37,418 bases of DNA from a virus (IMGVR_UViG_3300049259_000056:1-37418), one strand, 5' to 3'. Shown: positions 13,676 through 37,418, numbered from the stretch's first letter. A program made the numbers and translations. Notes: generated by a model not told the origin, from the letters alone.

Positions 13676-14671
13676 TTATCTCCCGGCTTGGAATGGAATG
13701 AATGCACAACGGCAATTGGGATGAGCGGGGATAAGGCTCCTCGCTTCATCGATCGTATAAGGACCGGCTTCCTCGATCCCTTCGCAGATAACGCAAACAT
13801 CGTCATCACCTGCGGTTAAGACGTTAACGAGATTGAGCTTCGATAGCTTGGCTTCGCGTCGCTCTATTCTCGTCTGCTCTTGCGCACCGGGTTTAGTCAA
13901 GAAGCGGCGCTGTACCGGTTTGCGCCTTCTGATCTTGACCGCGTCAAATGACGCGTGATCGTGGGAATGTTGCGGGGGTCGCGTCTCCGGAAGGATGCCA
14001 ACCCGGGCAACGCCACTGGCCTCATAGAGGTCCAGCTTTGCGGCGTTGAAAGCGCGGACGATATATGTAGACGCGAGCGCACGCAACCGCACCCTGCCTA
14101 TCTCGTCGATTTTGCCGACAATTGCTCGGTAAATACGTCTTTCCGAATAGCGGGCGACCAACCCCATTCCCATCTCGCGAGAGGCATTATGCACCATTGC
14201 GTCGGTCGCTCCTTGAAGCTCGATTTGAGCAAGCGCCACGATCGCGTCACAGTTATCGTGATGAATAAGCGTATCCTGATTATTGACTTCTTCGCGGGCT
14301 CGCGCCAAGCCAAGTTCATAAGCCGCGCGGATATACTTATCCAGCCAGTATCCATTACGATCGACAATGATGGATTGTGCCGCATCCGTAAACCATGCAT
14401 CGAAACCTTGAGCGGTCCGATAATTCGGCATCCCGAAGACCGGCTTGATCAGCGCCGCTTTACGCAAAGCCATCTTCAAGCGACGCAAGCGCTGCTCGAT
14501 ATCATTCCGGAAGGCGCGGCGGATCGAACCGGTGCGCGTCGGATCACGAGAAGGAGGAGGACGCATCGCGTCACGGGCTGGCATGACCGACGCGTCCCCC
14601 TCCTCCCGATCCGATCCACTAGCGGCGGGAGGAGAGATAACCCTAGTGGGACCGAATAGCGACATCAGCAT
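13676..14671 (-). CDS. Phage head morphogenesis protein, Mu gpF-like (MuF)
   Basis: The 331-residue protein is mostly helical. It has the MuF-type core (YSERRIYRAIVGKIDEIGRV, RALASTYIVRAFNAAKLD, ASGVARVGILPETRPPQ) and ends with CVIC, GPYTIDEAR and PAHPNCRC (about 293-322), the metal-binding-like motif of the family. These minor head proteins bind the portal and are packaged inside the capsid. Its ATG overlaps the portal stop region (TGCTGATG), reproducing the portal-MuF pair of Mu/SPP1-type phages. The first 50 residues are a Pro/Arg/Ser-rich disordered arm. Confidence 0.85.
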   Translation of the reverse strand: MLMSLFGPTRVISPPAASGSDREEGDASVMPARDAMRPPPSRDPTRTGSIRRAFRNDIEQRLRRLKMALRKAALIKPVFGMPNYRTAQGFDAWFTDAAQSIIVDRNGYWLDKYIRAAYELGLARAREEVNNQDTLIHHDNCDAIVALAQIELQGATDAMVHNASREMGMGLVARYSERRIYRAIVGKIDEIGRVRLRALASTYIVRAFNAAKLDLYEASGVARVGILPETRPPQHSHDHASFDAVKIRRRKPVQRRFLTKPGAQEQTRIERREAKLSKLNLVNVLTAGDDDVCVICEGIEEAGPYTIDEARSLIPAHPNCRCAFIPFQAGR

Positions 14672-16602
14672 GTATCATCCTCGTCGTCATCGTCGGGAGG
14701 ATCATTCGGATCATAAGACTTGCTGATGGCCTCGAACATTTCCGGACCGAACCGAAGCTCCCCGCGGTAAGGATCAATATTGCGGATATCGATGCTGACG
14801 CCATTTGCGATGGTCAGATGTGGCTGGTATTCCGCGTAATCATGCGAAGCACCTTGAGCACACATGCTCTCGTGTCGATATTGCAGACGATTGGATGCGA
14901 AACTTAGAACGATCGCCCCCTCTCCGAATTTTTCCATAACGCGGGGGCCACCGGCAGGAACGACAAGGTCGGCATCTCCTCCCCAATCGTCACTTCCAAG
15001 CGACATCCAATTGACCGGTTCCCGCGAATAGATAATGGTGACACGCATATCAGTAAGAACGCTAGCGGCGGGGAAGCCTTGAGCAATCGCCCACTCCCTG
15101 ACCTTAGAAGCCGATGCCGCGGTTAGATCGCGATGAACATAGAGCGGGGATGGCAGGCTATCCCCGATCCGAACGCTATCTCCGCTTCTCCGGGGAGCGG
15201 GGAGGGCCTTCCTAGCGGGCGGGAGGGCCTTTTGCTGCGAGTTCGAGGGGCCTAGGAGCTTCTGAGCGGCAAGCAAGGCAGGATCGACCTCAGGCTCATC
15301 CGGCTCCGCTCCGAACTCGTCTATCGCATCTTCGAAACCGGGATAGGTGCCATCCTCGATCAATTGGTTCTGTCGCCCTTGGCGTAATGCATCCTCATTG
15401 AAGAGCATACTGTTTACGTCAATCTGGAATGTCTGAGCTTTGGAGTAAGCAGTCGTCGCCTTCTCCGCTTCCGTCGCCTGCCAAAGGGGACGCCAGTTAT
15501 AATGGATGCCGTCCGGCATCGTGCCCAAGGTCGAGCGGATGACGATTTCATCAAGCGGAGAAATCGTCGGCGTCACTTCATTGGTCTGCTTCGAACGGCA
15601 GCTATCGTAATAATTCCGGATATCGCTTTCGCCCGTCGCGCTCAATCCTTTTGGTGACTGCGAGAGGAAGCGGGTTGACGGAACGTCGACCGCGGCACAT
15701 GCGATCAAAAGGTAGACCTGCAATACATCCGGCATCCCCTGAAATTCGACTTGGATGCGCTGCCACTCCTCTTCCTTATCAAGGAGGAGCGCGTTAATCA
15801 CAGACTTCGCGGTGTTCGCATAAGTGAAGCGTTCGGTCAGCCGCTTTTGACCTTCTTCTGTCGATACCGCCTCCGTAAGATCGGGCACCTTGATGATATC
15901 GACCTTTGCCTCACTGATCATGTGCGCGATGTTCGCGCTCACAAGACCAGCGCCCTTCACTGCATCATCGATTACTTGCAGGATCGGATCGGACCAAGCC
16001 TCGTTGAATTCGACCGCATTCAGCCTTTCCGCTCCATAGAAGGGAATGACGCGGGAGGGGTGAAATCGCACGCCTTGCTGAAAAGGAGTCGTAGCCGCGC
16101 CGATGTAGCGCTGCTCATAATATTCCGGGCGACCATACCATTCGCTTGCCACATCCTGAACGATCGTGCCGGTCGCCAATTGATTACGCGAGACCGGATG
16201 AAGGAATTTCAAACTATCCTTCTTGACCTTCTTCAAATTGAGCGGGAGGGTCATATCCTCCTCGTCATCGGTCCCCATCATGAGAGCGCCCCCGCCGATA
16301 AAGCGGCCGAGCTTCATCGCGCGTCGCATCTTCGATTGTACCTTGATCAGCTTCTCAGTCTCCTCAAGGGCAGTAATATCTTTCTTATCCGCCTGCCATG
16401 AGCGCCACTCACGCGTCGCATCATCGGCGGGAATATCAATGGCCTTCCGCACTATCCAATCGGAGCGGTAAGCGGCATCGATCTGTGCGTAAGTCAATGA
16501 GCGGATAACGTAACTGGTCGAGACGGCTCCTTTATCTCGCCCTCCCATACCAATGGATGAAAGTAAATTCTGAAATCCATCTTTGAAAAGTGAGGTCAGC
16601 AT
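14665..16602 (-). CDS. Portal protein (DUF1073) with C-terminal Acb1-like 2H phosphoesterase domain
   Basis: I use the ATG at 16602 (AGGA upstream, overlapping the previous stop), giving 645 residues. About 1-430 is a DUF1073 portal: SLTYAQIDAAYRSDWIVRKA, FIGGGALMMGTDDEED, YYEQRYIGA, AAVDVPSTRFLSQSPKGLSA, GESDIRNYYD. After a Pro/Ala linker, about 485-625 resembles the anti-CBASS Acb1/2H phosphoesterase fold. The second HxT motif is intact (HLT at 595-597, in DYAEYQPHLTIANG). The first is RVT (520-522, in TDMRVTIIYSREPVNW), so the expected catalytic His is Arg. The codon is CGT, one transition away from CAT. The end is an acidic tail (NDPPDDDDEDDTC). The portal role is secure; a working nuclease activity is doubtful. 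Confidence 0.88.
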   Translation of the reverse strand: MLTSLFKDGFQNLLSSIGMGGRDKGAVSTSYVIRSLTYAQIDAAYRSDWIVRKAIDIPADDATREWRSWQADKKDITALEETEKLIKVQSKMRRAMKLGRFIGGGALMMGTDDEEDMTLPLNLKKVKKDSLKFLHPVSRNQLATGTIVQDVASEWYGRPEYYEQRYIGAATTPFQQGVRFHPSRVIPFYGAERLNAVEFNEAWSDPILQVIDDAVKGAGLVSANIAHMISEAKVDIIKVPDLTEAVSTEEGQKRLTERFTYANTAKSVINALLLDKEEEWQRIQVEFQGMPDVLQVYLLIACAAVDVPSTRFLSQSPKGLSATGESDIRNYYDSCRSKQTNEVTPTISPLDEIVIRSTLGTMPDGIHYNWRPLWQATEAEKATTAYSKAQTFQIDVNSMLFNEDALRQGRQNQLIEDGTYPGFEDAIDEFGAEPDEPEVDPALLAAQKLLGPSNSQQKALPPARKALPAPRRSGDSVRIGDSLPSPLYVHRDLTAASASKVREWAIAQGFPAASVLTDMRVTIIYSREPVNWMSLGSDDWGGDADLVVPAGGPRVMEKFGEGAIVLSFASNRLQYRHESMCAQGASHDYAEYQPHLTIANGVSIDIRNIDPYRGELRFGPEMFEAISKSYDPNDPPDDDDEDDTC

Positions 16603-16793
16603 GATGCGTCGATCCTCTGTTTGATTTTGTAGACGTCGACGCCCCATCCATGTTCAATAGATATCCGCCGCCCGCTGGTCGTAATGATGACCAGATACGT
16701 TGCGGAGCCATTTATGTAGAAGCGTTGATCGATTATCGCGCTTTCGATCAACGCCGCTGAAAGGCTTTCGCCCCTCCCAATATCGATCATCAT
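16596..16793 (-). CDS. Hypothetical small protein upstream of portal
   Basis: I choose the ATG at 16793, 5 nt after the stop of the membrane-protein gene and with GGAG about 10 nt before it. This gives 65 residues. A longer frame reaches back to a TTG at 16946 (116 residues) but would overlap almost the whole 52-residue gene. The sequence is beta-rich (ESAIIDQRFYINGSATYLVI, ITTSGRRISIEHGWGVDVYK). The stop overlaps the portal start. Function unknown. Confidence 0.55.
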   Translation of the reverse strand: MMIDIGRGESLSAALIESAIIDQRFYINGSATYLVIITTSGRRISIEHGWGVDVYKIKQRIDASC

Positions 16794-28053: not shown

Positions 28054-28650
28054 ATGGGGAAGATCGAGCGCAGCAAAGAGTTTGCCGAGATAAACGCCAA
28101 GCTCCCTAGCCTAGACCGCGGGGAGCTTGAGGCGTTGCGAACGCGCATTAGCGCGATCCTTCATCTATCGGCGGGCGATCCGGATGTTACATCAAGCGGG
28201 GGAGAAGCCTCCCGCGATGATGCGATGTTCGCGCTCGCTTGCATCGCGGATACCTTGGCTGGCTTGGGAGAGGAATTCCCGCATGTCGGCATTCTCCAAA
28301 AATCCAAGGGGATGCCCGCCTTTCGAGCCAAGGTCCCGACCGTCATGGAATTTCTTCGACGATCGATCAAAGGGCGGCGCGAACAGCAGGCGGTGCTTTG
28401 CATCGCCATTGATCTTCTTTACAAAGCCATCGGCAGCACCGGGCTTCCTATTAGCTCGCGCGCAGTCATGAACCACTTCCATCGCATTCCCTCAATCCTT
28501 AACCAAGCTTTCCCCGGATATGCCAGCGCGGGGTTGCTTGGATTGATCATCATCCGCGACGCTCGGCAAAAGGAGCATGCAAGTGTACGGCCTCAACGCA
28601 GTGACGCACCAGTTTCTCCACCCCGACGGCGATCTGTTGGTCGTCGGTGA
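28054..28650 (+). CDS. Hypothetical helical protein overlapping queE
   Basis: The 198-residue product is helical (EFAEINAKLPSLDRGELEAL, RDDAMFALACIADTLAGLG, MEFLRRSIKGRREQQAVLCI). Its basic end SVRPQRSDAPVSPPRRRSVG lies in the 74-nt overlap with queE, so the tail may be partly constrained by the other frame. Not recognised. The stretch QAFPGYASAGLLGLIIIRDA could be a short hydrophobic helix. Confidence 0.65.
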   Translation: MGKIERSKEFAEINAKLPSLDRGELEALRTRISAILHLSAGDPDVTSSGGEASRDDAMFALACIADTLAGLGEEFPHVGILQKSKGMPAFRAKVPTVMEFLRRSIKGRREQQAVLCIAIDLLYKAIGSTGLPISSRAVMNHFHRIPSILNQAFPGYASAGLLGLIIIRDARQKEHASVRPQRSDAPVSPPRRRSVGRR

Positions 28651-29338
28651 GCCTTTCTACACTTTGCAGGGGGAGGGGCCACAAGCAGGTTGGCCAGCAA
28701 TCTTCGTTCGTTTGGCAAAGTGCAATCTGCGCTGCTTCTTCTGTGATACATCCTTTGAAGAAGGAAATAGCTACTGCCTCGACACGTTAGTCGAGCAAGT
28801 TGGCACAATGGCATCGGAGCATAAATGTGGGCTCGTGGTGCTGACCGGCGGCGAACCACTCCTGCAAAACGTCGTGCCTTTCATCCGGAAAATGAATTTC
28901 ATTAACATCGCAGTGGCAATCGAGACGGCTGGTACAGTATTTGTCGAAGGATTGGACCGATTATTCCGACCGGGGCATCTGGACAACTTCGAGGATAATC
29001 TGATCGTATGTTCCCCGAAGACGCCGAATATCAATGCGAGGCTCCGGCCCTTGATCGGCGCATTCAAGTATATCATTCGTGACTATCCCATCGGCGCGTT
29101 CAAGCATGGCGTCAGTATCGATGGGCTTCCGGTTCTCTCGACGCAAAAGGATGGCTTGCTATCCCTGATCTTTCGTCAGGATGAAGCATGCCTTCATCCG
29201 ATGCCGATCTATCTTCAAGCGATGGATGAGCGCGACTCGATTGCAACGGCTCGAAACGTCAAGCTTACGGCTAGGTTATGCCTAGAGCATGGCTACAGAA
29301 ACAGTATGCAGACCCACAAGCTCCTTGGATTGGATTAG
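28577..29338 (+). CDS. queE: 7-carboxy-7-deazaguanine synthase (radical SAM)
   Basis: The 253-residue protein has FYTLQGEGPQAGWPAIFVRL, then the radical-SAM triad CNLRCFFC (Cys49, Cys53, Cys56; CxxxCxxC), CDTSF, and TGGEPLLQ (90-97), all QueE marks. It converts 6-carboxytetrahydropterin to 7-carboxy-7-deazaguanine, the precursor of preQ0. An ATG at 28577 has AGGAG only 1 nt away, so a GTG at 28583 may be the true start. Together with queF it gives two pathway steps; QueC, QueD and the transglycosylase are not in the window. Confidence 0.9.
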   Translation: MQVYGLNAVTHQFLHPDGDLLVVGEPFYTLQGEGPQAGWPAIFVRLAKCNLRCFFCDTSFEEGNSYCLDTLVEQVGTMASEHKCGLVVLTGGEPLLQNVVPFIRKMNFINIAVAIETAGTVFVEGLDRLFRPGHLDNFEDNLIVCSPKTPNINARLRPLIGAFKYIIRDYPIGAFKHGVSIDGLPVLSTQKDGLLSLIFRQDEACLHPMPIYLQAMDERDSIATARNVKLTARLCLEHGYRNSMQTHKLLGLD

Positions 29339-34601: not shown

Positions 34602-35254
34602 AGCGGATTGCCCTCGTAATCGCGCTAGGAAGCCCCCTCACGAGCTTATCAGCCCTAGGCTACCAGCCTAGCAGGCGGGGCAGAATTCCGCGTCGGCGGG
34701 CTTCCCTAGGGGCCTTCGTAAAGCCTTGGAAATGTTACGAGAATTTCCGCCCCGGAAGCCTCGTAAATCTGCTTGCAACTCAGCCCTCCTGTCACTATTC
34801 TATGCCTGCGATTGGCGAATAGCTGATTGAAGGACCGAAGGGAGGCCCGAAAGGACTTCCTCCCTTTGCAGCCAAAGGAGCGGGCTTCCTAGCCTAGCTT
34901 CCTCTCCGAGGACCCTCAGTGAGGGGATGATCCGGAAGGAAGCACTAGAAAGAAGCAATCTCCCCGATCACCGGCAGGTCAAGACTGCCGGGATGCTACG
35001 CGCGAGCGCCCCTAGAGGGCCGCGCTAGCGAAGCATAGCCCGCATGATTGCGCGCTTCCTCTTCTCTGGCACTAGCGCTAACGAGCCTCCCCTTCACGAT
35101 CAAAGCCTAATGGCGCTTCGAAGCTTTGGCTTCCTTGCAGGATCATCAAAGCATGATCTAACTCGCAAGATGCGCGGCTGAATATCTGATCTGTCTCTCT
35201 CTCCAAATGATCATAGACGAGCGTGCGAGCCCTATGGGCCGCGCTTGCTTGCGA
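34602..35254. other. Non-coding, hairpin-dense, CTAG-rich region
   Basis: No gene is supported in these 653 nt. There are several perfect small hairpins: CTAGGCT/AGCCTAG (34655-34661 with 34665-34671) and CCGGCAG/CTGCCGG (34971-34977 with 34985-34991). There is also a terminator-like AAGGGAGG/CCTCCCTT stem. CTAG occurs 13 times from 34598 to 35285. Open frames in both directions look like chance. Confidence 0.55.
34838..34867 (+). terminator. Terminator-like hairpin after the plus operon
   Basis: AAGGGAGG (34838-34845) pairs with CCTCCCTT (34859-34866), and only one further T follows. The T-run is short, so a weak or Rho-assisted terminator is the most that can be said. It stands 240 nt downstream of the operon's last gene. 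Confidence 0.35.
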
Positions 35255-35367
35255 GAGCATCGCAAGAGGGGCTAGCTTCGGCTAGCCTCTTCACGATGCT
35301 CTAAGCATCACCCGGGGCGGCGAATGATAACGGATGCTGCCCCACTCATTCATAGGAGAGAAAAATC
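35255..35367 (+). promoter_or_regulatory. Repeated RNA leader, copy 0 (divergent first copy)
   Basis: P1 is GAGCATCG/CGATGCTC (35255-35262 with 35294-35301). It encloses the stem GGCTAGC/GCTAGCC closed by a TTCG loop. P3 is GATGC/GCATC (35295-35299 with 35305-35309), which shares bases with P1, so the two exclude each other. Unlike the other copies it has an extra stem GGGGCGGC/GCTGCCCC (35314-35321 with 35336-35343). The ribosome box with AGGAGAG then leads to the ATG at 35368. Confidence 0.7.
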
Positions 35368-35577
35368 ATGGCCCGCAAATATCACTCACTGCTCGAACGC
35401 ATCGACGGTCGCTGGTCAATCCAATTCGGCGACTTCGACCGCGAGGTCGTTAGGCAGGAGTTGGAGGATGTGCACGAGGGCGTCCCATTCGTCAAGAAGA
35501 AGGACTTGAAAATTATCACGACCGCCGAAAATCAAGCCGCTATCGCAGCGGCGGTTGCGAAGCTGAACGGAGAATGA
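35368..35577 (+). CDS. Small protein (69 aa) led by RNA leader copy 0
   Basis: The product is ARKYHSLLERIDGRWSIQFG, DFDREVVRQELEDVHEGVPF, then KKKDLKIITTAENQAAIAAA. It is an alpha/beta protein beginning with a beta hairpin rich in W/F and ending in an alanine helix. AGGAGAG lies upstream. Its layout resembles small phage proteins of the 'ribonuclease/antirestriction-like' size class, but I recognise no family. Confidence 0.7.
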   Translation: MARKYHSLLERIDGRWSIQFGDFDREVVRQELEDVHEGVPFVKKKDLKIITTAENQAAIAAAVAKLNGE

Positions 35578-35647
35578 ATTGCAGCTAGCGCCCTCCCGAT
35601 GAGGAGGGCGTCAGGGTGCAATGGGCACCTTCATAGGAGAGAGACAA
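35578..35647 (+). promoter_or_regulatory. Repeated RNA leader, copy 1
   Basis: P1 is ATTGCA/TGCAAT (35578-35583 with 35617-35622); it starts right after the previous gene's TGA. The enclosed stem is CGCCCTCC/GGAGGGCG (35589-35596 with 35603-35610). P3 is GGTGC/GCACC (35615-35619 with 35625-35629) and shares TGC with P1. TTCATAGGAGAGAGACAAA then meets the ATG at 35648. Confidence 0.8.
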
Positions 35648-35842
35648 ATGTATAGCTACGAAATCAACATCGCGGTTAACGGCTTGCACTACGCAAAGAT
35701 GATCCTTCCGGTGACCACGAGCGAAACACAAGCGAAGATAAAAGCAAAGAACATCTTCGAAGCTCTTTCGGACAGCTTCAACGCGACCGTCGTGATCGAC
35801 CTGACCCGAAAATCTAACATAATCGAAGCGGTCGAGTTCTAA
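35648..35842 (+). CDS. Small protein (64 aa) led by RNA leader copy 1
   Basis: I start at 35648, because the longer frame would read the leader as FIGERQ before the Met. The product is YSYEINIAVNGLHYAKMILP, VTTSETQAKIKAKNIFEALS, then FNATVVIDLTRKSNIIEAVE. It is a beta-alpha-beta fold, perhaps ferredoxin-like. Unrecognised; the RNA leader is the best clue. Confidence 0.7.
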   Translation: MYSYEINIAVNGLHYAKMILPVTTSETQAKIKAKNIFEALSDSFNATVVIDLTRKSNIIEAVEF

Positions 35843-35845
35843 ACA

Positions 35846-35916
35846 ATTGCAGCGAAGCGCCCTTTTCTTTGGGAGGGCGTCACGGTGCAATCACGCACTT
35901 CATAGGAGAGAGACAA
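35846..35916 (+). promoter_or_regulatory. Repeated RNA leader, copy 2
   Basis: P1 is ATTGCA/TGCAAT (35846-35851 with 35886-35891). The enclosed stem is CGCCCT/AGGGCG (35858-35863 with 35874-35879). P3 is GTGC/GCAC (35885-35888 with 35895-35898), one G-T pair longer at most. The same ribosome box leads to the ATG at 35917. Confidence 0.78.
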
Positions 35917-36183
35917 ATGACGACCAAGACCAAGACCGCGAAGACTTCCGCCCGCCGCGCTTCCTCTTCGACCAAGAAGGCTTCGAAGAGCGCGCGTCGC
36001 GACATCAGCCCGCGGTCGGCGATCCGGGAGCGCTTGGAGAAGAGCGGTCGCGATGCCGCTTTCGCTTTCGGAGTCAAGCTCAAGGGCATGAGCGAAGCGA
36101 CGGTCCGCCGCTACATCGCCTTCTTCCTCTCGAAGAAGGGCAAGACGGAAGCGAAGAAAGCCGCCAAGAAGAAGGCGGCTTGA
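35917..36183 (+). CDS. Histone H1-like Lys/Ala/Ser-rich DNA-binding protein
   Basis: The 88-residue product is TKTKTAKTSARRASSSTKKA, SKSARRDISPRSAIRERLEK, FAFGVKLKGMSEATVRRYIA and ends KKGKTEAKKAAKKKAA. The two flanking arms are basic and disordered, as in bacterial/phage H1-like proteins. The centre (about 30-70) can form a small helical domain. It should bind DNA without sequence preference and may organise or shield phage DNA. The start at 35917 uses the constant ribosome box. Confidence 0.75.
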   Translation: MTTKTKTAKTSARRASSSTKKASKSARRDISPRSAIRERLEKSGRDAAFAFGVKLKGMSEATVRRYIAFFLSKKGKTEAKKAAKKKAA

Positions 36184-36196
36184 TCCGCCAAGCAGG

Positions 36197-36267
36197 AGTG
36201 CAACGAAGGGGAGCGCCTTAGTGCGCTCTCTCACGATGCGCTTTGCATCATCATAGGAGAGAGACAA
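36197..36267 (+). promoter_or_regulatory. Repeated RNA leader, copy 3
   Basis: P1 is AGTGCA/TGCGCT (36197-36202 with 36237-36242) with one G-T pair, a covarying version. The enclosed stem is GAGCGC/GCGCTC (36211-36216 with 36223-36228). P3 is GATGC/GCATC (36235-36239 with 36245-36249). The same box leads to the ATG at 36268. Confidence 0.75.
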
Positions 36268-36522
36268 ATGACGAAAACGTACATCTGGTCCGTCAATGGA
36301 CGGGGAGCTTTCCCGCTCGACATGCTGCGCTTCGACGCATGTTATCCTGCGACCAGCGCCGATGTCGACGCGATCCAGCGCTCACTTGATCCGCTGGAAC
36401 GCCGGGAAGCCGGATCGAAAGGCTTCTCCGTAACGCTGCGCTCCCAAATCGCGGGAGCGGAAGAGGCGCGGTGGAATTCTTTCGGTTGGCGCGTCAGTGA
36501 TAAACGCGAAGAGCGCCGCTAG
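36268..36522 (+). CDS. Hypothetical small protein (84 aa) led by RNA leader copy 3
   Basis: The product reads TKTYIWSVNGRGAFPLDMLR, FDACYPATSADVDAIQRSLD, PLERREAGSKGFSVTLRSQI and ends VSDKREERR. Beta strands surround a central helix. It is possibly a small nucleic-acid or protein binder. Not recognised. The next gene starts 3 nt after its stop without a leader of its own. Confidence 0.7.
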   Translation: MTKTYIWSVNGRGAFPLDMLRFDACYPATSADVDAIQRSLDPLERREAGSKGFSVTLRSQIAGAEEARWNSFGWRVSDKREERR

Positions 36523-36525
36523 ATC

Positions 36526-36726
36526 ATGCGCCCTTCATACAACACACGAACGCCAATCGTCGAACGTCGCGGCAAGGAAGCGGTGTTCAACAAGATCAAT
36601 GAGCTTCGCGTCAAGATCGGGCGACCGAAGATGACGCGAGACTACATGGACCGAGTCGGCTTGGAAGCTCTTCGAAAAGACCTAGCCTGCCTCCAATTCG
36701 AGAATGCAGCGAAGGGGAGCGCCTAG
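36526..36726 (+). CDS. Basic small protein (66 aa), second gene of a pair
   Basis: The product is RPSYNTRTPIVERRGKEAVF, NKINELRVKIGRPKMTRDYM, RVGLEALRKDLACLQFENAA. It is a helical basic protein. It lacks a leader and has only a weak ribosome site, so it probably depends on coupling to the previous gene. Its last codons and stop are inside leader copy 4. Confidence 0.6.
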   Translation: MRPSYNTRTPIVERRGKEAVFNKINELRVKIGRPKMTRDYMDRVGLEALRKDLACLQFENAAKGSA

Positions 36727-36775
36727 CGCGCTCCCTCACGGTGCATTTACCCGCACCTTCATAGGAGAGAGACAA
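36703..36775 (+). promoter_or_regulatory. Repeated RNA leader, copy 4 (overlaps the end of a gene)
   Basis: P1 is AATGCA/TGCATT (36703-36708 with 36742-36747), a covarying pair compared with copies 1-2. The enclosed stem is GGGAGCGC/GCGCTCCC (36715-36722 with 36728-36735), and the TAG stop of the 66-aa gene lies in its loop. P3 is GGTGC/GCACC (36740-36744 with 36753-36757). The ribosome box meets the ATG at 36776. Confidence 0.8.
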
Positions 36776-37270
36776 ATGGAACGCTTGTTAATGAACGCAC
36801 CGACCCTCGACTTCAACGTGGAATTCGATCGTTGGGTTCTCAAGCTCAATCTGCAAGGAACGGTGCGGCTCGACGAACTCGAGCGCTCCTACGAGATGAT
36901 GGTCCAATGCGCCTTTCAAGGAGAAGAAGAGGGCTGGTTCCAGTACCGCTTCATCCGATGGGAAATGGGCGATTGGGTCGAGGTCATCACGCGCGCCGAA
37001 TTCGACCAGCGCGTGAAGGATATCCGGGAGCATGAGGGCGACCGGATCGCCAACGCTTGGGCGGAAGGTCAAGACCAAGTCGACATAATCAACGACTACC
37101 ATCCGGTCTTTCTGCTCCGGGATCATTGGGAAGCAATGATCAAGCTTGGCCTCTTCTTCCCCTCCGTGACTAACCGGCAATGGCAAGGGAAGCCGACCAA
37201 TCCGGAACTCAAGGCCAAGCTTGACGCGATCGTAAAGGACGAACGCGACTTCGTCGTCGATCCCACCTGA
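36776..37270 (+). CDS. Hypothetical protein (164 aa) led by RNA leader copy 4
   Basis: The start at 36776 uses the constant box, and the longer frame again reads the leader. The product begins LLMNAPTLDFNVEFDRWVLK. It then has NLQGTVRLDELERSYEMMVQ, an acidic aromatic part (EGWFQYRFIRWEMGDWVEVI) and DHWEAMIKLGLFFPSVTNRQ. The acidic N-terminal two thirds suggest a DNA-mimic or protein-binding factor, which is speculative. Not recognised. Confidence 0.7.
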   Translation: MERLLMNAPTLDFNVEFDRWVLKLNLQGTVRLDELERSYEMMVQCAFQGEEEGWFQYRFIRWEMGDWVEVITRAEFDQRVKDIREHEGDRIANAWAEGQDQVDIINDYHPVFLLRDHWEAMIKLGLFFPSVTNRQWQGKPTNPELKAKLDAIVKDERDFVVDPT

Positions 37271-37276
37271 TCAGGG

Positions 37277-37347
37277 AATGCAGCTAGGGCGCACCCATCC
37301 GGGGTGCGCCTCGTGGTGCATTTTTGCACTTCATAGGAGAGAGACAA
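37277..37347 (+). promoter_or_regulatory. Repeated RNA leader, copy 5
   Basis: P1 is AATGCA/TGCATT (37277-37282 with 37317-37322). The enclosed stem is GGCGCACCC/GGGTGCGCC (37288-37296 with 37302-37310), 9 bp. P3 is GTGC/GCAC (37316-37319 with 37326-37329). The box then leads to the ATG at 37348. Confidence 0.8.
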
Positions 37348-37418
37348 ATGGCCAAGAAGAAAGCCACCAAAGTAAAGGCGGCAAAGCGTGCCGCTCCTGT
37401 CGAGCGTAAGGCGAAAGA
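37348..37418 (+). CDS. Lys/Ala-rich histone-like protein (partial)
   Basis: The frame is open to the window end: MAKKKATKVKAAKRAAPVER and further. It is strongly basic, like the 88-residue H1-like protein, and probably also binds DNA. The C-terminus is outside the window. Confidence 0.6.
   Translation, partial: MAKKKATKVKAAKRAAPVERKAK

Follow-up and report, generated by a model that had tools for sequence, protein, structure and literature searches.

What is the role of an RNA leader that stands, in several versions, before the small genes at one end of a phage genome? The question is raised by the window, by which we mean the whole 37,418-base linear IMG/VR virus record IMGVR_UViG_3300049259_000056. 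Six small genes at its right end each follow a leader in which a helix P1 encloses a GC-rich stem P2, and in which the 3' strand of P1 is also the 5' strand of a hairpin P3, so that P1 and P3 are mutually exclusive. Direct reading found all six ATGs and leaders where an initial annotation of this DNA had placed them, and the six-copy observation is confirmed as real. Possibly the leader is a reusable element of a new kind, serving the control or processing of viral genes. The reading that we favour, with a probability of roughly 0.38, is that the leaders are cis-acting intercistronic RNA elements, used in tandem in unrelated tailed phages, in which a cleavage would flip P1 into P3 and thereby make independent messages. 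The arms of P1 and P3 listed here were read directly from the sequence; the folds are predicted.

35255-35309, plus strand: leader copy 0, P1 at 35255-35262/35294-35301 (GAGCATCG/CGATGCTC) with P2 between the arms
35295-35300/35304-35309, plus strand: P3 of copy 0, GATGCT-cta-AGCATC
35314-35344, plus strand: extra GC-rich hairpin between P3 and the Shine-Dalgarno (SD) box, among the window copies in copy 0 only
35349-35367, plus strand: SD box of copy 0, TTCATAGGAGAGAAAAATC, before the ATG at 35368
35578-35629, plus strand: leader copy 1, P1 at 35578-35583/35617-35622 (ATTGCA/TGCAAT)
35615-35619/35625-35629, plus strand: P3 of copy 1, GGTGC/GCACC
35630-35647, plus strand: SD box of copy 1, TTCATAGGAGAGAGACAA
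35846-35899, plus strand: leader copy 2, P1 at 35846-35851/35886-35891 (ATTGCA/TGCAAT)
35884-35888/35895-35899, plus strand: P3 of copy 2, GGTGC/GCACT, outer pair G-U
36197-36249, plus strand: leader copy 3, P1 at 36197-36202/36237-36242 (AGTGCA/TGCGCT)
36235-36239/36245-36249, plus strand: P3 of copy 3, GATGC/GCATC
36702-36757, plus strand: leader copy 4, P1 at 36702-36708/36742-36748 (GAATGCA/TGCATTT)
36740-36744/36753-36757, plus strand: P3 of copy 4, GGTGC/GCACC
37276-37330, plus strand: leader copy 5, P1 at 37276-37282/37317-37323 (GAATGCA/TGCATTT)
37315-37319/37326-37330, plus strand: P3 of copy 5, GGTGC/GCACT

The compensatory changes in P1 that had been claimed between GAGCATCG/CGATGCTC in copy 0, ATTGCA/TGCAAT in copies 1 and 2, AGTGCA/TGCGCT in copy 3 and AATGCA/TGCATT in copies 4 and 5 are all present, and P3 covaries as described (GGTGC/GCACC in copies 1 and 4, GGTGC/GCACT with an outer G-U in copies 2 and 5, GATGC/GCATC in copies 0 and 3). 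Some details needed correction. The box reported as fixed contains TCATAGGAGAGA in all six copies, but its start reads ATCATAGG in copy 3, and the inner stems are not all unrelated, since P2 is alike in copies 1 and 2 and again in copies 3 and 4. TCATAGGAGAGA occurs exactly six times in the window, always at the leaders, and the 20-mer of box plus ATG five times. Extra hairpins like that of copy 0 are also found in phage G018 (at 8364) and in L317 and L315.

Relatives were traced with a P1/P2 sequence pattern, which led to G018, and then with a pattern from the G018 array, the covariance model R1 and a third pattern. A first ad hoc descriptor scan had given 345 matches against 226 on the reversed sequence; because of this high background we relied on covariance models. 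The resulting set with genomic context comprises 58 leaders, the six of the window and 52 elsewhere, the latter in about 17 other IMG/VR phage genomes (near-identical contigs counted once), where they stand between small genes, at most 13 in any one genome. The G018 array (L123:4865-12633) holds twelve leaders with the same anatomy and a different sequence, for example ATTGCAG...ACGGCAAT CCT GCCG, followed by a phage-specific box ATGGAGACTGAC before the ATG; a further copy is nearly identical to the P1/P2 module of the window. This copy (L123:5714-5769) lies in the array of the other subfamily, has no P3 and is followed by a different SD box. Before the first gene of the array, which has an SD box and no leader, a long near-perfect inverted repeat was noted by eye (L123:4530-4620). 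Run on whole records, R1 found 12 leaders in G018, 11 in G026, four in G023 and three each in G024 and G028, and thus showed that phages originally known from one leader have arrays of several copies. Window-type leaders, among the matches listed for the third pattern, are present at least in G792-G797.

The leaders fall into two subfamilies. In A, P3 is CGGC/GCCG; in B, to which the window belongs, it is GGTGC/GCACC, with two extra pairs near P1. R1, a model of subfamily A with its CGGC/GCCG type, gave no significant score at the window leaders. Their shared anatomy and two bridging copies, a copy with B-type P3 in an A array (G026, 7299) and the B-type copy in the A array of G018 (5714), nevertheless tie the two together. 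A model of eight non-window sequences (R3) matched copies 2, 4, 1, 5 and 3 of the window with E-values of 1.5e-15, 4e-12, 6e-12, 4e-11 and 3.8e-5, and copy 0 weakly (E=0.14); a model whose training set included the five window copies other than copy 0 (R2) matched copy 0 with E 3e-5 and 20 bits. All these E-values are rough by the tool's own statement. The phages that carry leaders are unrelated: their terminases belong to phrog_38, phrog_2 and phrog_9 and their portals to phrog_146, phrog_156 and phrog_1216.

Pairing was examined across the family. In 20 type-A leaders 98.4% of the P1/P2 cells are paired and 11 pairs have changed on both sides; 61 cells are double-changed, compared with 16 in shuffles, and slid registers are 24-45% paired. 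For 13 type-B leaders the values are 88.5% paired versus 70%, and 40 double changes versus 13.6. These shuffle controls take no account of relatedness, and leaders from a single phage cannot count as independent of one another; more weight attaches to the model test across phages. In 23 leaders outside the training set, 355 of 362 P1/P2 cells pair (98%), and the occurrence of 14 G-U cells versus 4 A-C cells favours an RNA of the sense strand. The third P3 pair is G-C in 41 leaders, T-A in 13 and A-T in one, and thus paired in 55/55, while the pair after it is C-G, G-C or A-T except for two C-A cases (counts parsed by hand). Alignment A3 contains no P3 variation within itself. Some P3 instances were picked by the search patterns themselves; those type-A leaders that were reached through the P1/P2 model alone nevertheless form four or more P3 pairs, although P3 sequence is part of R1. 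In related phages the two arms thus mainly change together, so that the refuting condition named in the initial annotation, homologous leaders with a change in only one arm, is decided mostly in favour of that annotation.

The strand that P1 and P3 share has undergone three-way change. At k=+1 its shared nucleotide agrees with the partner in each helix; at k=-1 it does so when it is T or A. In some copies of G018, an A-to-G change in P1 (ATTGC/GCAAT to ATCGC/GCGAT) is met by a T-to-C change on the P3 side, and in G026 (11436) a shared A has T as its partner in either helix. The strand thus follows its partner in P1 as well as that in P3, which is what selection on both helices would produce. 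We regard the leader family and its two-state anatomy as highly probable; tandem reuse and compensatory change hold up as initially described, and covariance searches of other phages found further leaders.

These data bear on two explanations in which the RNA fold has no role. Recent local duplications, with covariation by chance or shared ancestry and no function, would account for the nearly identical SD boxes of the window and for the likeness of P2 in copies 1 and 2 and in copies 3 and 4. The match of the non-window model R3 to the window copies, and slid-register and shuffle controls far below the observed pairing, contradict this explanation for the family, and we consider it hardly credible. 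Alternatively, the leaders could mark cassette boundaries at the DNA level, as a homology or structure tag for small-gene shuffling of the PeSL or integron attC kind, with RNA folding incidental. They do flank mostly unmatched small genes in unrelated phages, and G018 carries a window-type copy inside the array of the other subfamily. However, compensatory changes in both exclusive helices, the bias of G-U over A-C and the fixed place before the SD point to RNA, and neither an attC core nor a T-tract signal nor a promoter accompanies the leaders; a DNA tag is accordingly improbable.

By predicted energy, the two states are of similar stability. P1 and P2 together have about 17-19 paired positions, broken by 1x1 and 2x2 internal loops; P3 starts 1-3 nucleotides (nt) past the internal loop, and the two adjoin in all alignments. 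Constrained folding of 29 leaders gave a median difference (P3 minus P1) of +0.9 kcal/mol, with 19 within 2.5 kcal/mol; in the window P1 is predicted to be the more stable in 6/6 copies, by 0.3-5.6 kcal/mol. Outside the window, a stop codon of an open reading frame (ORF) of at least 40 codons lies -3 to +6 nt from the leader start in 45 of 52 cases (36/43 of family A, 9/9 of the non-window B type); random positions give 7.5%. All three stop codons (TGA, TAG and TAA) occur, and their registers are shifted. Within the window such contact is seen in 3/6 copies; in copy 1, the upstream TGA (35575-35577) touches P1. The exceptions are copy 0 (no adjoining upstream gene), copy 3 (stop 13 nt before P1) and copy 4 (stop inside P2), and all three keep both helices.

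Contact with stop codons suggests a possible, though doubtful, alternative in which the ribosome operates the leader. A ribosome ending at the upstream stop would cover the 5' strand of P1 and so allow P3, and P1 would form when the upstream gene is not translated; the leader would signal to the following gene whether the upstream one is translated, in the manner of an attenuator that has no terminator. The frequency of contact outside the window, the use of all three stops in shifted registers and the nearly isoenergetic states, with P1 slightly favoured as a ribosome-thrown switch would need, all agree with this. Yet half of the window copies break the stop rule and keep both helices, and neither state covers the SD, which leaves no evident output in translation. 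Somewhat less probable again is the fuller version of this idea, that the leaders form a new class of intercistronic RNA switch, exchanged between unrelated phages and flipped by the terminating ribosome, which would couple neighbouring genes one by one without terminator or SD sequestration.

The SD deserves separate mention. Neither helix covers it, and its pairing in the predicted folds is mixed and unsystematic. The plus strand at the window leaders has no promoter-like or terminator-like site, and the 58 leaders show no T-tract signal (three are T-rich). An on/off translation switch is therefore not supported. The initial annotation had proposed a switch or a translation or processing controller, and this interpretation is partly supported: a switch that controls translation finds no support in that form, and the alternative of a processing or stability element fits at least as well.

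Conserved sequence raises a further explanation. The 5' strand holds TTGCAGC, at unpaired or singly constrained positions, in both subfamilies, and this could be the docking site of a trans-acting factor, either a small RNA or an RNA-binding protein of host or phage, which holds P1 or P3 and sets translation or stability of a small-gene regulon. Tandem reuse before genes of diverse families would suit such a regulon. The invariant unpaired core is small, though, and by blastp at 1e-6 no gene or protein family extends to more than 4 of the 19 leader phages. It is thus unlikely that the phages encode a common partner, which would otherwise have to be very divergent, and we judge docking as a whole to be unlikely.

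In the favoured processing model, the P1/P2 hairpin, starting at or near the upstream stop codon, would be the resting form as long as the polycistronic mRNA is intact. P1 would then lose its 5' strand, the likeliest agent being a host nuclease specific for double strands, such as RNase III, which would cut the P1/P2 stem at its internal loop. The freed 3' strand could fold into P3, directly upstream of the next SD. Because P3 begins 1-3 nt past the internal loop, the mRNA downstream of the cut would carry P3 at its 5' end as a protective hairpin, right in front of an accessible ribosome-binding site, and each gene would become an independent, stabilised message. A cut in the stem fits the placement of P3, the free sequence of P2, the lack of a common phage partner and copy 0, which keeps both helices without an adjoining upstream gene and so implies that no ribosome is needed.

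Several points weigh against this reading. P1 and P2 together are short for some RNase III enzymes, and that of S. meliloti prefers longer duplexes (PMC6121014). A pure processing model demands neither the adjacency of stop codons nor near-equal energies of P1 and P3. Furthermore, the shared G of family A is mismatched with A in P1 in 41/41 leaders, a minority of leaders has a one-base defect in P1, and the copy at L123:5714 lacks P3. The cleavage-driven flip, taken by itself, is much less certain than the family and its anatomy.

Searches beyond the set of leaders gave no further members. Rfam 15 yielded no match above its gathering score at the leaders, and none of the lower-scoring matches was credible. 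The exact 21-mer of the SD box occurs in no other IMG/VR record, and blastn with the leader consensus against isolate phages and plasmids gave weak, non-leader matches only. In 84,980 species genomes the P1/P2 pattern had 66 matches, none a convincing leader; the family-A pattern had nine in 385 + 369 genomes of two classes, which by eye are chance matches whose inner sequence does not fold back. Relatives of the portal (16 loci) showed no box-plus-leader arrays in those searched, and the helicase of the window, used as a query, found no relatives. In parts of Rhizobium phage L338C, Rhodobacter phage RcTiptonus and mycobacteriophage Anaya, R1 matched nothing; R2 gave a single weak match among them, which was taken as chance. 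A whole-genome search with R1 found none among the 150 scored of thousands of candidates per genome, which is uninformative. No paper describing the leader family was found in the open-licence literature.

The minus strand of the window encodes a portal and a terminase and the plus strand a DnaB-like helicase and a second helicase; the right end is an array of small genes, mostly without a family match.

35368-35577, plus strand: ORF of 69 amino acids (aa), no Pfam or PHROG match
35648-35842, plus strand: ORF of 64 aa, no Pfam or PHROG match
35917-36183, plus strand: ORF of 88 aa, rich in Lys, Ala and Arg, no Pfam or PHROG match
36268-36522, plus strand: ORF of 84 aa, phrog_11674, function unknown (E=1e-10)
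36526-36726, plus strand: ORF of 66 aa without its own leader, 3' end overlapping leader copy 4
36776-37270, plus strand: ORF of 164 aa, no Pfam or PHROG match
37348-37418, plus strand: start of the sixth led gene, which runs off the contig end

Ribosomes translating 36526-36726 would run into leader copy 4 and open its P1 and P2. The approximately 650 bases directly before copy 0 (34602-35250) contain no convincing ORF and are possibly a structured non-coding RNA or a promoter region; the segment 34640-35370, which includes copy 0, folds far better than shuffles (z -4.9) and has several inverted repeats. Elsewhere, the C-terminal part of the portal (14668-16647, minus strand) matches phrog_755, annotated as RNA ligase (E=3e-17), an unusual fusion, and ORF 28577-29338 appears QueE-like (7-deazaguanine synthesis) from its cysteine motif, judged by eye.

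How do the leaders compare with known systems? The processing sites of phage T7 resemble them in being irregular hairpins of about 60 nt with an internal loop, placed between genes and reused along the message, with no need of a phage-specific partner. The R1.1 site of T7 lies between its genes 1.0 and 1.1 and folds into a hairpin of 60 nt that contains a 4/5-nt internal loop (PMC6121014); RNase III of E. coli cleaves one bond in it, yielding pieces of 47 and 13 nt (PMC4858673). In contrast to these sites, the leaders, whose cleavage is proposed here by analogy, add the alternative hairpin P3 on the shared 3' strand, and the base of their P1 shows strong sequence conservation and touches the stop codon. 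In layout, the closest published pattern is that of the start-associated sequences (SAS/ESAS) of cluster K mycobacteriophages, which recur upstream of some of the small non-structural genes and have an SD-like box after inverted repeats with a variable spacer. The sequence of the ESAS repeats is conserved, the deviations from it give no support to RNA pairing, and the authors of that study argue against RNA hairpins (PMC3203893). Membership was rejected, as SAS has the box GGGATAGGAGCCC and sequence-conserved 17-bp inverted repeats, whereas the leaders have TTCATAGGAGAGAGACAA and variable stems; the part of phage Anaya that was searched had no R1 or R2 match. In Anaya (L322) the ESAS inverted repeats hold TTGACA followed by a palindrome, and may be promoters or operators.

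T4-type promoter early stem-loops (PeSLs) are likewise intergenic stem-loops tied to small-gene shuffling in phages. By the title of Comeau 2014 (in PMC4503421) they are composite promoter-terminator motifs; the leaders, with no promoter-like or terminator-like site and no U-tract, were not assigned to them. Attenuators and other exclusive leader RNAs share the choice between 1:2 and 2:3 pairing round a common strand near the site where a ribosome stops. The leaders differ from them in being intercistronic, with up to 13 copies per genome, and in lacking a terminator or an SD-sequestering partner; membership among attenuators or riboswitches was rejected because no such helix serves as output. 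Integron attC sites, too, are palindromes that separate the members of small-gene arrays, with ends that are conserved and inner stems that vary. Unlike these, the leaders have a polarity given by SD and P3 and covary in a second, exclusive helix, and the RYYYAAC and GTTRRRY cores are present in 0/58.

Phage genomes are rich in small genes of unknown function in tight arrays, and how the expression level of each gene is set is mostly unknown. If our reading is true, the leader family would be a general device that makes arrayed genes independent, and it would also mark accessory gene arrays for discovery. In this respect it can be likened to the ribozyme-plus-hairpin insulators of synthetic biology, of which it would be a natural counterpart.

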